A DNA stretch of 43,246 nt, from contig VHDF01000037.1 of the NCBI GenBank assembly GCA_016871495.1, positions 1-43,246 on the forward strand. Direction: 5' to 3'. Positions 4,358 through 9,873 of the stretch are shown here, in pieces. The stretch's first letter is position 1, and the number at the start of each line of letters is the position of its first letter. The position numbers and the translations under genes were made by a program. The stretch is from Verrucomicrobiota bacterium (lineage in GTDB: Bacteria > Verrucomicrobiota > Verrucomicrobiia > Limisphaerales > VHDF01). The notes under the pieces are model-generated. The model was not told the DNA's origin. It ran no database searches and worked only from the letters and a program-made list of their open reading frames with translations.

Positions 4358-5620
4358 ATGAAGGTTTCACTCGCATACGGACAAGGCCACCTCGACGTGG
4401 ATCTCCCTGACGGACGCACGACCGTGATTGAACCGCGTTCTGCTCCGGGGTTGGCGGATGAACGCGCTGCGATTCACGACGCCCTCGGCTCTCCCATCGC
4501 CGCCAAGCCGTTGCGGGACTGGATCAAGCCCGGGGACAAGGTCTGTATCGCCTTTACCGACATCACGCGTGCCACGCCCAATCATCGTTTGATTCCCTGG
4601 CTGCTCGAACACCTGGATGGGATCCCTCGCGAGAACATCACGCTGCTGAACCAGCTCGGCACTCATCGACCCAACACTCAGGCCGAGCTCGAGAAAATGC
4701 TCACCCCGGAAGTGGTGAGGAACTACCGCGTGCTCAACCATGAACCTGAGAACCCCGGCGAACTGGCCGCCTTTGGTGTCACTCGCGGAGGCGTGCCCGC
4801 TCTCATCAACAAACACCTGGCCACGGCGGACGTGAGGATCATCACCGGATTCATCGAGCCCCATTTCTTCGCGGGGTTTAGCGGCGGACCGAAAGGGATC
4901 ATGCCGGGCTGCGCGGGGCTTGAAACGGTGATGAGCAACCATGGCGTTCAGAACATCGGCGATCCGCGGGCGGCTTTTGGCATCCTCGACGGCAATCCGC
5001 TGTGGGAGGAGATTCGGGACATCGCCCTGCGCGTGGGGCCGAGTTTTCTCCTGAACGTTTCCCTCAACGAACAACGCCAGATTACGGGTGTCTTTGCGGG
5101 GGACCTCTTGAAGGCGCACCGGACGGGCGCTGAATTTGTCCGGGAATCCGCGATGCAGAAGGTCAAGGAACCTCACGAGGTTGTGGTCACCACCAACAGC
5201 GGATACCCGCTCGATCTCAATCTTTATCAGGGCGTCAAGGGGGCCAGCGCCGCCGCCCGCGTCGTGTGCGAGAAGGGCTTGATCATCCTGGCCTGCGAAT
5301 GCCGTGAAGGCGTGCCGGATGGAAGTCCTCTCGACAAGCTGTTGCGCAGCGCTTCGAGCCCCGAGGAAATTCTGGCCATGCTGGCCACGCCCGGATTTGT
5401 CCGTCCTGAACAATGGCAGGCCCAGATTCAATCCCTGATCCAGCGCAAGGCCCGCCTTCTGGTGTACAGCTCGCTGCCGGATGAGGTCATTCGCCGATGC
5501 CACCTCGAACCGTGCCACGACATTGGAGCCGAAGTCAGGGCCCATTTGGATCGTGACAAGCCCGGCGCCCGCGTGGCCGTGCTTCCCCAAGGCCCGCTTA
5601 CGATTCCGTATCTTGCCTAG
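4358..5620 (+). CDS. larA: LarA-type nickel-dependent lactate racemase family protein
   Basis: A 420-residue protein of the LarA (DUF2088) family, whose founder interconverts D- and L-lactate using a nickel-pincer (NPN) cofactor covalently bound to a lysine. The functional residues of Lactobacillus plantarum LarA (H108, H174, K184, H200) align to H103 (GTHRPNT), H169 (EPHFFAGFSGG), K179 (GGPKGIMPG) and H195 (NHGV), each offset by exactly five. The enzyme is therefore likely a working pincer racemase or epimerase. Many LarA homologues act on other alpha-hydroxy acids, so lactate as substrate is not certain. The cofactor-making genes larB, larC and larE are not in this window. Monocistronic as far as seen, divergent from the ligase cassette and convergent with gpsA. 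Confidence 0.85.
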   Translation: MKVSLAYGQGHLDVDLPDGRTTVIEPRSAPGLADERAAIHDALGSPIAAKPLRDWIKPGDKVCIAFTDITRATPNHRLIPWLLEHLDGIPRENITLLNQLGTHRPNTQAELEKMLTPEVVRNYRVLNHEPENPGELAAFGVTRGGVPALINKHLATADVRIITGFIEPHFFAGFSGGPKGIMPGCAGLETVMSNHGVQNIGDPRAAFGILDGNPLWEEIRDIALRVGPSFLLNVSLNEQRQITGVFAGDLLKAHRTGAEFVRESAMQKVKEPHEVVVTTNSGYPLDLNLYQGVKGASAAARVVCEKGLIILACECREGVPDGSPLDKLLRSASSPEEILAMLATPGFVRPEQWQAQIQSLIQRKARLLVYSSLPDEVIRRCHLEPCHDIGAEVRAHLDRDKPGARVAVLPQGPLTIPYLA

Positions 5621-5746
5621 CCTTTCCTTTCGCCCGCGTGGTGTGTTTGCGATGGGACGGGAAGCCGGATCAAGCGGGTATCCACCGCGCCGTCCAGATG
5701 GAACCGCGTTGCGGATCACCCAACCCTTTCGATGCGTAAACCCGGC

Positions 5747-6730
5747 TCAGGACTGCTCCGATTTTGATTCGCGCGAGGTGAGGTCCTGCACGGCCATCGT
5801 CGCGGCTTTGCCTTCGTGGAGCATGGCATGAACCTGATCGATGATGGGGGTTTCCACCGCGAGTTGGCGGGCCAGGTGAAACGCCGAGCGCGAGGTTGGG
5901 AACCCCTCGGTCACGTGGGTTGAGGTCCGGAGAATGGCGTCCACAGTTTCCCCTCGTCCGAGCCGCTCCCCAAAGGCGCGATTGCGGCTCAGTCTTGAAA
6001 AACAGGTCACGGTCAAGTCTCCCAGCCCACCCAGTCCGGCGAATGTTTCGGCCTGGGCTCCGCACGCGACGCCCAGGCGCCGGATCTCCACGATGGCCCG
6101 GGTGATCAGCGCGGCTTTGGAGTTGTCCCCGAAGCCCAATCCGTCGCAGACCCCGGCTGCGATGGCGACCACGTTCTTCAACGCGCCGCCCAATTCCACG
6201 CCTAATGGATCCGGGCTCGTGTAAACACGGAACGCCGGGCGATGAAACAAACGCTGGACCGCTTCCGCCGCGTCGCGATCGACGGATGCCGAAACCACTG
6301 CTGTCGGAATATCGCGGCCTACTTCCATGGCCAGGCTCGGTCCCGACAAGGCCACGGGTGATGCGAGGGGACAAAGCAGACGCATCACGCCGCACATCGT
6401 GAGTCCCGTTTCGTACTCGATGCCCTTGGTGACGCTTACGATGATGCCTTTGAAGTCGGACAACGCCAGGGCCACCGATCGCACGGCCTGGCTGGGAACG
6501 GCCACCACCATGAGTTCTGCCTCCCCGGCGACTCGTTCCAATTGGGACTCGAAGGCGCAAGGCTCCGGAATGGCGATGCCGGGCAAATGACGGACATTTT
6601 CGCGGCGGCGGGCCAGTTCCTCGATGTGCCCAGGGTCGTGTCCCCAGAGGATCACGGGGTTTCCGGCCAGGGCCAGGAGGCGTGCCAGCGCCGTTCCCCA
6701 AGCACCCGATCCCAAGACTCCGACTTTCAC
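5747..6730 (-). CDS. gpsA: Glycerol-3-phosphate dehydrogenase [NAD(P)+]
   Basis: A 327-residue cytosolic GpsA, which reduces dihydroxyacetone phosphate to sn-glycerol-3-phosphate, the backbone of membrane phospholipids. The nucleotide-binding motif GSGAWGTA starts at residue 7. The core motifs SGPSLAMEV (129-137) and ELGGALKNV with the catalytic lysine K185 are present, as is GLGGLGDLTVTC. Length is typical (about 330). Start is GTG at 6730, overlapping the stop of plsY (GTGA), so the two are translationally coupled. The pairing is functional: GpsA makes the acceptor that PlsY acylates. No frameshift or missing residue seen. Confidence 0.97.
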   Translation of the reverse strand: MKVGVLGSGAWGTALARLLALAGNPVILWGHDPGHIEELARRRENVRHLPGIAIPEPCAFESQLERVAGEAELMVVAVPSQAVRSVALALSDFKGIIVSVTKGIEYETGLTMCGVMRLLCPLASPVALSGPSLAMEVGRDIPTAVVSASVDRDAAEAVQRLFHRPAFRVYTSPDPLGVELGGALKNVVAIAAGVCDGLGFGDNSKAALITRAIVEIRRLGVACGAQAETFAGLGGLGDLTVTCFSRLSRNRAFGERLGRGETVDAILRTSTHVTEGFPTSRSAFHLARQLAVETPIIDQVHAMLHEGKAATMAVQDLTSRESKSEQS

Positions 6731-7380
6731 GGGCGAACCTCCGGGGTCGCTGCCTCCGTCTTTTTCGAGCCGAAGCGGTTCTCCGTGCCGTTGAGCAGAC
6801 GTTGAATGTTGCCCCTGTGTTTGTAGATCGCGAGTCCTCCGATGGCAGCCAGGATCGCGGTCCAGCCCCAGCCGCGATTCATGAGCCAGGCCAGCAAAGG
6901 GAGGGCGGCGGCGGCGCAGATGGAGGCGAGTGAAACAAAGCGGGAAAGGGCGAAGACGACGGCGAAGATGCCGAGCGCCGCGAGAAAGACGGGAGTGATC
7001 AAGGCCCCGAGAACTCCCGCGGTGGTGGCGACTCCTTTGCCACCTTTGAAGTTCAGCCAGAAGGTGTAATTATGCCCCAGGATGGCCGCGAGGCCTCCTG
7101 CCAACGCGTGGCGAGAAGCGAGTTCCGGATCAGCCGATGCGGTGGAGATCCATGCCGCTGCCCAAGGCCCGGCGAAACAGGCGAGGACTCCTTTGGCGGC
7201 GTCCCCCAGAAGCACAAAAACACCGGCGGGTTTTCCGAGAATTCGAAAGACATTGGTGGCTCCGATGTTTCCGCTGCCGACTTTGCGAATATCGACGCCC
7301 TTGGCCAAACCCATCCAATAGCCCGTGGGAAGGGATCCCAGGAGGTAACCGGCGAGAACCGCCAGAAGATAACCGCTCAC
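6727..7380 (-). CDS. plsY: Acyl-phosphate:glycerol-3-phosphate acyltransferase
   Basis: A 217-residue integral membrane enzyme that transfers an acyl group from acyl-phosphate to glycerol-3-phosphate, giving lysophosphatidic acid at the inner membrane. Family motifs are visible in order: GYLLGSLPTGYW (11-22), VGSGNIGATNVFR (36-48), the central GHNYTFWLNFKGGKGVATTAG, and a C-terminal HRGNIQRLLNGTENRFG. Several hydrophobic helices separate them. The start is GTG, 9 bp after the stop of the small lipoprotein gene. The 3' end overlaps gpsA by 4 bp. Length is slightly above the usual 190-210 owing to a charged C-terminal tail. Confidence 0.96.
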   Translation of the reverse strand: MSGYLLAVLAGYLLGSLPTGYWMGLAKGVDIRKVGSGNIGATNVFRILGKPAGVFVLLGDAAKGVLACFAGPWAAAWISTASADPELASRHALAGGLAAILGHNYTFWLNFKGGKGVATTAGVLGALITPVFLAALGIFAVVFALSRFVSLASICAAAALPLLAWLMNRGWGWTAILAAIGGLAIYKHRGNIQRLLNGTENRFGSKKTEAATPEVRP

Positions 7381-7389
7381 CGTCGCGAA

Positions 7390-7554
7390 TCAGCGGCCTT
7401 CCAGCATTTGAGTGGGAAGGCCATGTTCCCAGCCTCGCGGGGAATTCCAGGGGCGGGTTGAAACCTGATTGTCCGTGCTGGCGCACCCGGTCATCCACAG
7501 GACCACGGCCAGCATTCCAATCATCCCCAAACCTCGTCGCGCGGCTCGCTTCAT
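7390..7554 (-). CDS. Small outer-membrane-type lipoprotein, 54 residues
   Basis: A short gene, easy to miss, lying between the coiled-coil gene and plsY with a 9 bp gap to plsY. The product begins MKRAARRGLGMIG, continues with a hydrophobic run (MLAVVLW), and reaches a lipobox MTG-C at residue 24, so the mature protein would be a 31-residue lipopeptide anchored by Cys24. The mature part contains RPWNSPRGWEHGLP, rich in Trp, Pro and Gly. I recall similar tiny W/P-rich lipoproteins in other Verrucomicrobiota, but could not check this. No enzymatic role is suggested; a structural or envelope function next to phospholipid genes is a guess. Confidence 0.7.
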   Translation of the reverse strand: MKRAARRGLGMIGMLAVVLWMTGCASTDNQVSTRPWNSPRGWEHGLPTQMLEGR

Positions 7555-7587
7555 GGTCGACTCAACAATGTTGGGGGTGGGATGGGA

Positions 7588-8346
7588 TTACAGCCCGGAG
7601 ATGACGGCATCGCCTTCCACGACGTCCGACTGTTTCCATTCGGGGAGAATGTTGGCAATTGAGCGATCGGAGTGAACTTTGGTCAGGCGGACTTTGGCGA
7701 CGAGTTTGCCCGCGCGATTCACCAGCATTTCGCCGCGTTCCTCGGCGCCCTGTTCGGAGCCGATGTTCAAGATGACGAAATCGTGTTTGGGATCGATGGC
7801 CACGATTTTGCCTTTCAACCCTGCGGGCAACGTGACTTTGGGTTCTTTGTCGCCTTCGAAAGCCGCCAATTTGCGCTGCAGAATGCGGGTGTTACGTTCC
7901 AAAATGGTGTTTTCGCCCGCGAGCGCCTCCTTTTCTTCCCGCGCGCTCTTGAGGTCGATCTTGAGTTGGTTGATCTGTTCGATGGTGACACTCGTGGCAT
8001 TCCAGCGGGCCAAGCCGGCGCGAGCGGTTTCGCGTTCCTCGTTCGAGGTGATGAGGTTGTCGCTGACTTCCTTCAAGCGTCTGCGGGTGCTTTGCAAATC
8101 GTTGCTGGCCGTGCGGAATTCATCGGCGAGCTGATCCCGTTCGGCGACGAGCTTCTTTTGTTCGTCCAAAGCCTTCTTTTCGTTCTGCTTCGCGGTTCGC
8201 TCATTGCCTTCCGCCGTGGTTTTGGCCGCCGTGGCTTCTTCGAGCTGCTGGGTTTTCTCCTTAAATCCCGATCCGACAACGAGAAAGGCGATGACGAGCG
8301 CCCCAATATTCGAGAGGAGGCCGACGATCAAACAGGCTCTAAGCAT
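7588..8346 (-). CDS. Membrane-anchored coiled-coil protein of unknown function
   Basis: A 252-residue protein with one N-terminal transmembrane helix (residues about 4-24, LIVGLLSNIGALVIAFLVV). A long charged coiled coil follows, rich in E, K, Q and A (about 30-170). The C-terminal domain (about 175-252) is beta-rich: GLKGKIVAIDPKHDFVILNIGSEQG. The layout (anchor, coiled coil, small beta domain) is reminiscent of MreC-like or other envelope scaffolds, but I see no specific family signature. It precedes the lipoprotein and plsY-gpsA by short gaps on the same strand and may be co-transcribed with them. Start is ATG; no anomaly seen. Confidence 0.75.
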   Translation of the reverse strand: MLRACLIVGLLSNIGALVIAFLVVGSGFKEKTQQLEEATAAKTTAEGNERTAKQNEKKALDEQKKLVAERDQLADEFRTASNDLQSTRRRLKEVSDNLITSNEERETARAGLARWNATSVTIEQINQLKIDLKSAREEKEALAGENTILERNTRILQRKLAAFEGDKEPKVTLPAGLKGKIVAIDPKHDFVILNIGSEQGAEERGEMLVNRAGKLVAKVRLTKVHSDRSIANILPEWKQSDVVEGDAVISGL

Positions 8347-8415
8347 TGGAAAATGATGGTTGGGTGTTGAACTGTGTTGGGCACACTACTCACGACCTCT
8401 TGGGGTGTCAACGTC

Positions 8416-9612
8416 TCACGCGGTTTTGACAAATCGCACACAAACCGGGCTCGGAACATCCACTTTATGGCCGGAAAAGCGCAAGGCACCCGTGCTTGGA
8501 TCGATGGCCAGCACCGCGATGGTGTCGCTGCTCTGGTTCTCCGCCAACAAATAGGCTCCCGTCGGGTCGATCGCGAAATTTCGCGGGGTTTTGCCTTCCG
8601 TGGAGGCGTGGCCGGCCGGCTCCAGTCGGCCATCGGACCGGACGCGGAATCCGGCAATCGTGTGGTGTCCCCGATTCGATCCGTAAATAAACCTGCCGCT
8701 GGGATGCGCCACGATTTCGGCGGTCGAATACTCCGGCTTGAGAGGTTCGCCATCGGGCAAAGTGGAAAGCGTCTGGATCTCCCGCAGCGCCCCGGACTTG
8801 GCGTCATGTTCGAAAGCGGTGATGGTGCACACCATCTCATTAATGACGTAGGCGAAACGTCCGCCCGGATGGAACGTGAAATGGCGCGGACCCGATCCCG
8901 GCGCCACCGAGGCGGCGGCGGGCTGACTTGCTTTCAAGGTTCCGGCCTTGGCGTCCAGCCGGTAAATCAAGACTTTGTCCAGCCCCAGATCCGCCGCGTA
9001 GGCGAAGCGGTTGTTGGGCGAGACATTGATGGAATGGGCGTGGGGTTCCTTTTGGCGGTTGGGATTGGTGGAGGAACCTTGGTGTTGAATGAAACTCACC
9101 GCCTCGCTGAGTTCGCCGCCGGGGCCAATCTTGAATGAGGCGACGCTGCCCCCCCCGTAATTGGCCACGAGTACACAACGTCCCGTGCGATCGACGGTCA
9201 GATGGCAGGGACCCGGTCCGCCGGCGGAAACTTGATTGATGAGGGTCAGTTTTCCGTCCTTTCGATTGACGCGAAAGGCGCTGACGCCCCCCGCTTTCTT
9301 GCCTCGGAACTCGCCCATTTCGTTGACCGAGTAGAGCAGGGGTTTGCTGGGATGCACCGCGAGGAACGCCGGACTGGCGATTTCCGCCACCCAACCCACG
9401 GGTTCCAATACACCGTGCGAGGCGTCGAACCGGAAAGCGAAGATGCCTTTGCTTTTGCCGCCGGTGTAGGTGCCTACGTAGGCGAAGAACGAGCGACCCC
9501 GATGGCCGCTATGGGCTGCGAGGGGCGGGATCAAGGGGGCGGCACAAACTGCGGCGGTGGCTGCCGCGGCGCGGCGCAATGCCGCCCTGCGGGTGAGGGC
9601 TTCGAGCTTCAT
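8416..9612 (-). CDS. Lactonase-family seven-bladed beta-propeller (Pgl-like), exported
   Basis: A 398-residue protein of the YbhE/Pgl lactonase family, represented in E. coli by 6-phosphogluconolactonase. The N-terminus MKLEALTRRAALRRAAAATA resembles a Tat leader, so this copy is probably exported and may act on other lactones or serve a binding role. After the leader, FFAYVGTYTGGKSKGIF marks blade one. Repeated family motifs follow: GGPGPCHLTVDRTGRCVLVANY, KEPHAHSINVSPNNRFAYAADLG, GSGPRHFTFHPGGRFAYV and SNRGHHTIAGF. The open frame extends upstream to 9714 but runs into a dispersed repeat, so the ATG at 9612 is chosen. It is separated from the six-gene operon by that repeat. Confidence 0.85.
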   Translation of the reverse strand: MKLEALTRRAALRRAAAATAAVCAAPLIPPLAAHSGHRGRSFFAYVGTYTGGKSKGIFAFRFDASHGVLEPVGWVAEIASPAFLAVHPSKPLLYSVNEMGEFRGKKAGGVSAFRVNRKDGKLTLINQVSAGGPGPCHLTVDRTGRCVLVANYGGGSVASFKIGPGGELSEAVSFIQHQGSSTNPNRQKEPHAHSINVSPNNRFAYAADLGLDKVLIYRLDAKAGTLKASQPAAASVAPGSGPRHFTFHPGGRFAYVINEMVCTITAFEHDAKSGALREIQTLSTLPDGEPLKPEYSTAEIVAHPSGRFIYGSNRGHHTIAGFRVRSDGRLEPAGHASTEGKTPRNFAIDPTGAYLLAENQSSDTIAVLAIDPSTGALRFSGHKVDVPSPVCVRFVKTA

Positions 9613-9670
9613 GCGATGATCCAACACCTTGTCTCCCTCGGATGCAACCCTTGCGTGGTGACGCCAAGGA

Positions 9671-9873
9671 GCGGTGCCTCCAGAGGATGTCGGTGACCGG
9701 GTTGTCGTGGTCACGCAGACCGCCCTGTTTGCTGTGGCGCAGGCTGCCCAGCCTGCGGGGCGACGAAGGGAACCCGGCGCGTGGAGAGCAGGGAAGGGCC
9801 TCGTTCTTCACCCGCCGGGCCGACGGGCCGTCGGCGATACGTCAGGCTGAGCAGCCTGCGCCACACGACAGAC
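9671..9873 (+). repeat. ~200 bp dispersed repeat, copy 1 (family D)
   Basis: About 203 bp that match, in opposite orientation, the segment at 16272-16471 at roughly 90% by eye. It starts near GCGGTGCCTCCAGAGG and ends near CCACACGACAGA. Near-palindromes GCAGGCTGCCCAGCCTGC and CAGGCTGAGCAGCCTG near the middle and end can form hairpins. It fills most of the 298 bp between the lactonase gene and the thioesterase gene. No coding sequence is convincing inside it. Confidence 0.85.

Follow-up and report, generated by a model that had tools for sequence, protein, structure and literature searches.

A phylum-wide family of tiny predicted lipoproteins in Verrucomicrobiota, encoded predominantly beside a gene for a predicted membrane-anchored coiled-coil protein

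A frame of 54 codons, easily overlooked at this length, in a genome of Verrucomicrobiota encodes a member of a family of tiny predicted lipoproteins that, judged from sequence, is phylum-wide in Verrucomicrobiota and undescribed. The gene usually follows directly on a gene for a predicted membrane-anchored coiled-coil protein, here called the partner; this pairing predominates, and the exceptions to it, found for either gene, are real. Together, lipoprotein and coiled coil suggest an envelope component of two parts that is as yet undescribed, and the best explanation, to which we assign a probability of roughly 40%, is that an outer-membrane peptide anchor works with the membrane-anchored coiled-coil partner. 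That such a pair is kept across a diverse phylum, in which one member is a lipopeptide of ~30 residues, several of them nearly invariant, points to an unnamed envelope function, and the two small genes would offer a simple genetic entry point to how Verrucomicrobiota hold their envelope together.

A conserved lipoprotein gene of 54 codons

We analysed a stretch of 43,246 nucleotides, contig VHDF01000037.1 of a Verrucomicrobiota bacterium (assembly GCA_016871495.1), referred to as the window. A sequence-only reading had pointed to a frame of 54 residues with a lipobox (MTG-C) and a mature peptide of 31 residues, 9 bp before plsY. This frame is present as described, on the minus strand, which that reading had not stated; plsY starts 9 bp past its stop codon, and on the plus strand a stop inside 7390-7554 leaves no intact frame. 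The features concerned are:

7390..7554, minus strand: coding sequence of the 54-aa lipoprotein, a member of a conserved family; ATG at 7554, stop at 7392-7390
7486..7554, minus strand: predicted signal peptide MKRAARRGLGMIGMLAVVLWMTG, residues 1-23, read from the sequence and alignment A5
7483..7485, minus strand: lipobox Cys24, predicted lipidation site, with Ala at +2 and Ser at +3; the Cys is invariant in 81/81 members of A5
7426..7452, minus strand: core motif PWNSPRGWE, residues 35-43, from the conservation in 81 aligned members
6727..7380, minus strand: plsY (PF02660, TIGR00023; GTG start), downstream neighbour, local and not conserved
5747..6730, minus strand: gpsA, next downstream, overlapping plsY by 4 bp, local and not conserved

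The lipobox reads ...LWMTG before the Cys, and the full protein consists of MKRAARRGLGMIGMLAVVLWMTG followed by the mature peptide CASTDNQVSTRPWNSPRGWEHGLPTQMLEGR of 31 residues. A charged n-region, a hydrophobic stretch and a lipobox Cys near residue 20, all read from the sequence, are those expected of a signal peptidase II substrate. Among the 81 aligned members, a subset of 126 distinct members that was also used for the Pfam and NCBIfam scans, P35 and W42 are invariant together with the Cys (81 each); W36 (75), P39 (77) and E43 (80) are each kept in at least 90%, and core position 37 has N in 61 members and S in 16. Across the 126 distinct members, the mature part has 28-39 residues.

A search with the single protein over 38 genomes of the window's order (own included) matched all 38 at E≤1 and 34 at the stricter E≤1e-5, or 33 of 37 when the own genome is set aside, and thus bore out the conservation of the frame in relatives. 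A profile of eight sequences picked up the lipoprotein in no fewer than 162 of the 288 phylum genomes (the window's own among them), both within the window's class and beyond it; 157 of the 162 have one match each. The 162 are an undercount. Moreover, the order-level motif PWNxP[KR][GST]WE was scanned over one genome per species (84,980 species) and gave 138 stretches, 102 of them relatives. Eighty of these were kept as loci L021-L100, chosen on this single motif alone with their neighbours disregarded; their titles are mainly Verrucomicrobia. Some MAG titles, 'Proteobacteria bacterium' and 'Akkermansia muciniphila', are odd beside an order-type locus (L089, L031, L032, L047, L051, L052, L078 and L087), and these MAGs are probably mislabelled bins.

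A pattern that combines lipobox and core, composed after the family had been seen, gave 124 matches over the six frames of 150 loci (962,406 bp), every one at the position of the lipoprotein gene (112 matches in lipoprotein-selected and 12 in partner-selected loci); since most of these loci had been selected by motif or profile, the count shows specificity and not frequency. In close pairs of lipoprotein copies, dN is mostly far below dS, as in L033/L057 (dS 0.46, dN 0.026) and L023/L044 (dS 0.76, dN 0.033); the trio L073/L074/L080 has few changes and dN/dS ratios of ~0.3 to 0.85. By these estimates, the lipoprotein gene is mostly under purifying selection. That the frame is not a gene, and instead a chance open frame or a leader beside plsY, is therefore extremely improbable given that sequence, position and codon-level selection are conserved across the phylum, even though it has only 54 codons and no promoter-like site was found in 5600-8700, which says little. 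In total, these comparisons indicate that the 54-codon frame is a real gene and not a chance occurrence. The proposal that tiny lipoproteins of this style are a conserved envelope feature of the phylum holds for the conservation, given the 162 or more of 288 genomes and the small lipoproteins in 18 of 20 genomes examined after the profile had given no match (see below); an action in the envelope would follow from the lipobox.

The sequence-only reading had also placed the gene beside plsY-gpsA and proposed to check the synteny with plsY. This linkage was rejected: among ORFs of ≥110 aa in 129 other loci (L021-L149), of which 120 hold ≥700 bp downstream (73/80 and 47/49), neither plsY nor gpsA of the window had a match (E≤1e-5). 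The linkage with plsY is thus local to the window (0/129), and the conserved neighbour is the upstream coiled-coil gene, which had gone unmentioned. A frame not conserved in close relatives with the same plsY locus had been named as refutation; no relative with the same plsY locus was seen, and the frame is conserved nonetheless.

The upstream partner

The partner gene and its parts lie in the window as follows:

7588..8346, minus strand: partner gene, 252 aa, 33 bp upstream of the lipoprotein gene; conserved neighbour with an N-terminal hydrophobic anchor, a long coiled coil and a C-terminal beta barrel
8272..8334, minus strand: predicted membrane anchor, ~residues 5-25, a hydrophobic stretch in the sequence from which the topology is deduced; model pLDDT is low there
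7855..8268, minus strand: helical coiled-coil part, ~residues 27-164, with model helices 2-117 and 122-164
7591..7824, minus strand: C-terminal beta barrel, residues 175-252, from the AlphaFold2 model and fold matches

A coiled-coil gene of ~250 aa lies directly upstream of the lipoprotein gene, on the same strand, in 80/80 order loci (L021-L100). The gap between the two genes is -4 to 44 nt in 73/80 of these loci and 33 in the window, and in 10/80 the genes overlap by 4 nt. In the window, the stop codon of the partner and the start codon of the lipoprotein share one frame, 33 bp apart (7554-7590), an in-frame arrangement that recurs in 14 other loci among L021-L100 (gap ≥0, full-length partner). 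When flanking ORFs of ≥110 aa were clustered, the partner was found in 113 loci and every other neighbour family in at most 26, antisense shadows of the partner aside. Loci L001-L020 partly duplicate L021-L100 (e.g. L002 and L034) and were excluded from this clustering and from later counts; L114, L139 and L149 repeat the places of L109, L107 and L108, respectively.

Outside the order, 40 phylum loci (L110-L149) were picked for spread among the matches listed and not at random; in 29 of them, a barrel profile built from the order loci only detected the partner upstream, no more than 341 bp away. The 40 matches of this profile in the 2137 ORFs of L101-L149 were all the partner gene or its tandem copies. 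An iterated profile raised the count to 30/40; its E-values, here and for the discordant genomes described below, involve phylum members in the profile, which for this count are the hits themselves, and the order-only profile is the independent version. With the iterated profile, the partner was not found upstream in L111, L115, L116, L118, L122, L126, L130, L133, L135 and L138. Among these, L133 is a false lipoprotein match (a TPR-like protein matched by its signal peptide); it was kept in the 40 as a miss and left out of the dN/dS, +2 and mature-length counts. The partner is present in two tandem copies in L153, L159, L160, L164, L165, L166, L168 and L169 as well as in L105 and L131, and in L164 two small lipoproteins follow in a row after the tandem copies.

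An AlphaFold2 model of the partner (62 sequences) had a mean pLDDT of 90.8 and a pTM of only 0.50, and the arrangement of the parts is therefore uncertain. By fold, the barrel is closest to the C-terminal domain of FlgT (Z 11.3 and 10.4, over 76 and 72 residues; rmsd 2.3 for Z 11.3), and residues 175-252 alone align in this comparison, the rest of the model being helix. The N-terminal barrels of F1-ATPase match at Z 10.1, and thus the fold of the barrel is a common one. The first rank in Foldseek was MreC (2j5u, E 8.7e-5). The partner as MreC itself was rejected: the window protein had no PF04085 match at E≤0.1, and the same genome has a separate, true MreC beside MreB on contig C31 (PF04085, 8.2e-39). 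PDB sequence matches of the partner to tropomyosin and similar proteins were taken as coiled-coil composition. Altogether, the partner is a predicted membrane-anchored coiled coil with an MreC/FlgT-C-like barrel; it has an MreC-like layout without being MreC.

Exceptions and flanking genes

In a whole-genome search, the barrel domain matched in 231 of 288 genomes of the phylum. Both profiles were present in 125 genomes, the lipoprotein only in 37, the barrel only in 106 and neither in 20; at the thresholds used, the presence of the two profiles over the 288 genomes is not associated (odds ratio 0.64, Fisher p 0.18), a result to which members missed by either profile contribute. Accordingly, we examined 20 of the 106 genomes with the barrel only: a small lipoprotein was encoded directly downstream of the barrel gene in 18, with a clear core in 14 and a diverged sequence in four (L153, L164, L165 and L170), of which that of L165 contains ...TERSKPWNESQKFEAE.... 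In L168 and L169, the two others of these 20, the partner is present and the lipoprotein was not found just downstream. Conversely, in 20 of the 37 genomes with the lipoprotein only, a barrel gene lay upstream in 11 (iterated profile) or 8 (order-only profile). Many discordant genomes are therefore detection failures (18/20 on the barrel-only side and 11/20 on the lipoprotein-only side).

In the remaining 9/20 genomes with the lipoprotein only, the partner was not found beside the lipoprotein with the iterated profile; four of these belong to one family and five to another. Upstream of the lipoprotein gene lies, in three of the four, a gene that we take to be metF-like and, in four of the five, what is presumably an HU gene. 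Moreover, L111, L115, L116, L118 and L122, from one further family, have no partner beside the lipoprotein and no barrel match genome-wide. PGI is kept upstream in three of these five loci and a methylase downstream in all five, as in relatives with the partner in between. Loci in which the lipoprotein is kept without a detectable adjoining partner are thus L111, L115, L116, L118 and L122; L130 and L174-L177; and L135 and L178-L182. Since such loci occur in at least three families, the lipoprotein can persist without a detectable partner.

Since the partner is missing in some lineages, the lipoprotein may have an independent target, for example a machine of the outer membrane. The peptide could bind a universal machine of the LptD or BamA type and help to assemble or gate it, in which case the coiled coil would be linked through the operon only, much as LptM, in the available part of its description, is a lipoprotein of ~6 kDa that stabilises a conformation of LptD (PMC10567701). 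That several families retain the lipoprotein although no partner is detectable fits this reading; against it, the linkage to the partner is far stronger than any other seen, and the window protein had no match at E≤0.1 to the LptM models PF13627 and NF047847 in either library. PF13627 is absent from the Pfam families listed for the 81 members, and NF047847 matched 4/81 weakly (best E 0.004). We regard an LptM-like accessory as possible, if on the whole doubtful.

Other flanking genes mark subgroups. Downstream of the pair, 13 loci encode MreB, 12 encode MreC and 11 a PBP2-like transpeptidase (representatives confirmed by Pfam). The ORF in between in the mreB/mreC loci had no Pfam match at 1e-8, and we assume that it is MreD. 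The 13 MreB loci have similar lipoproteins and, on that basis, appear to form one clade. In L030, L032, L048, L051, L060, L066, L072, L078, L079, L087, L090 and L091, mreB and mreC follow directly on the pair, with the PBP2-like gene in 11/12, and this group raises a possible functional link to wall elongation. Among loci from other orders of the window's class, 18 have PGI upstream and 17 have a gene of the tetrapyrrole-methylase family, presumably RsmI, downstream; L109 and L114 being one place, these are 17 and 16 places, respectively. RNase Y, in convergent orientation, lies downstream of the pair in 23 order loci. In the window itself, frame 4358-5620 looks to us like a protein of the lactate-racemase (LarA) type and frame 8416-9714 like a lactonase-type beta-propeller.

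A candidate envelope pair and its relation to known systems

In the proposed pair, the usual lipoprotein enzymes would process the lipoprotein, and sorting would place it in the outer membrane, on the inner leaflet, with its Trp/Pro peptide of ~30 residues displayed to the periplasm; the N-terminal stretch of the partner would anchor that protein in the inner membrane. The barrel or the coil of the partner may be the docking site for the PWNxPxxWE core, a short peptide, and the pair would link the two membranes in a minimal way or position the partner at the outer membrane. The outer-membrane location is suggested because none of the 126 distinct members has Asp at +2 (0/126), following the E. 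coli rule that outer-membrane lipoproteins are without Asp at this position, a rule that may not hold in Verrucomicrobiota. The same count, with the same reservation, speaks against a modulator in the partner's own membrane, i.e. a lipoprotein that stays at the inner membrane, or is there transiently, and folds, oligomerises or inhibits the partner's barrel; the tight gene order with its 4-nt overlaps would suit such a modulator and the membrane-anchored partner fits either membrane, and we consider this unlikely.

In favour of the pair of outer-membrane peptide and coiled-coil partner, the partner lies upstream in 80/80 order loci and 29/40 phylum loci, and the reciprocal examination recovered the lipoprotein in 18/20 genomes; the absence of Asp at +2 and the confidently modelled helices and barrel of the partner also speak for it. 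Against it stand the missing profile association, the lineages without a partner, the pTM of 0.50 and the lack of any sign of docking: in an AlphaFold2 single chain in which the C-terminal half of the partner was read through the stop into the lipoprotein, the mature peptide had a pLDDT of 52-60 and gave no such sign, in a run without PAE or an isolated-peptide control. A more specific form of the pair, a phylum-typical inter-membrane connector with an inner-membrane coiled-coil stalk and an MreC-like barrel head that the lipidated PWNxPxxWE peptide of 30 residues catches at the outer membrane, perhaps with a coupling to wall elongation, seems rather unlikely.

Pfam and NCBIfam scans of the 81 members gave weak, scattered matches and no convincing model, and annotation pipelines therefore leave the lipoprotein unnamed. 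NF058595 ('invert_tail') was rejected (E 0.057, 13.8 bits vs a cut-off of 37), and a PDB sequence search with the lipoprotein gave no match below E 0.038. In the open-licence literature, we found nothing that describes the lipoprotein family and nothing for FlgT/H-ring. CT421.2, which presumably binds nucleic acids, was considered for the lipoprotein and compared by its description. It is a small PVC-wide protein of about 53 aa in Chlamydiaceae, and the word 'lipoprotein' was not found in the part of the description available (PMC3444138).

The partner resembles MreC (PF04085) in its anchor, coiled coil and C-terminal beta domain; unlike MreC, PF04085 matches only weakly in 14/62 partner members (best E 0.001), and the NCBIfam MreC model reaches E 0.002 and 17.5 bits with the window partner against a cut-off of 343. 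The partner's barrel may share the fold of the C-terminal domain of FlgT (PF16538, weak in 5/62 members), and this domain alone aligns.

Like Lpp (Braun lipoprotein), the family consists of small lipoproteins, and NF040598, the alanine-zipper model of Lpp, matched 17/81 members weakly (best E 0.001), which was taken as similarity of the signal peptides. Lpp has a mature part longer than the 28-39 residues of the family. Unlike in Lpp, where a C-terminal Lys joins the peptidoglycan, a C-terminal Lys is found in 2/126 family members and Arg in 91, the window lipoprotein ending in Arg. These differences make an Lpp-like wall linker, a peptide that would bind peptidoglycan or be joined to it without involving the partner, distinctly unlikely; for such a linker speak the tiny size, the locus group with the pair just before mreB, mreC and the PBP2-like gene, and the precedent of a different Verrucomicrobiota lipoprotein of 139 aa. 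The available part of its description presents this protein, WP_009060351 of Methylacidiphilum fumariolicum, as a proposed wall linker with a conserved C-terminal part of 53 residues and a conserved C-terminal Tyr and Lys, whose gene adjoins amyA and galT (PMC10260701). It too is a lipoprotein, has a part restricted to Verrucomicrobiota and, by that description, is set apart by its length, C-terminal end and gene context (PMC10260701).

Finally, like LptM (YifL), the present protein is a tiny lipoprotein, predicted at the outer membrane, whose short mature peptide would carry the function; unlike LptM, the family has the core PWNxPxxWE, is found in Verrucomicrobiota and is linked to a coiled-coil gene.
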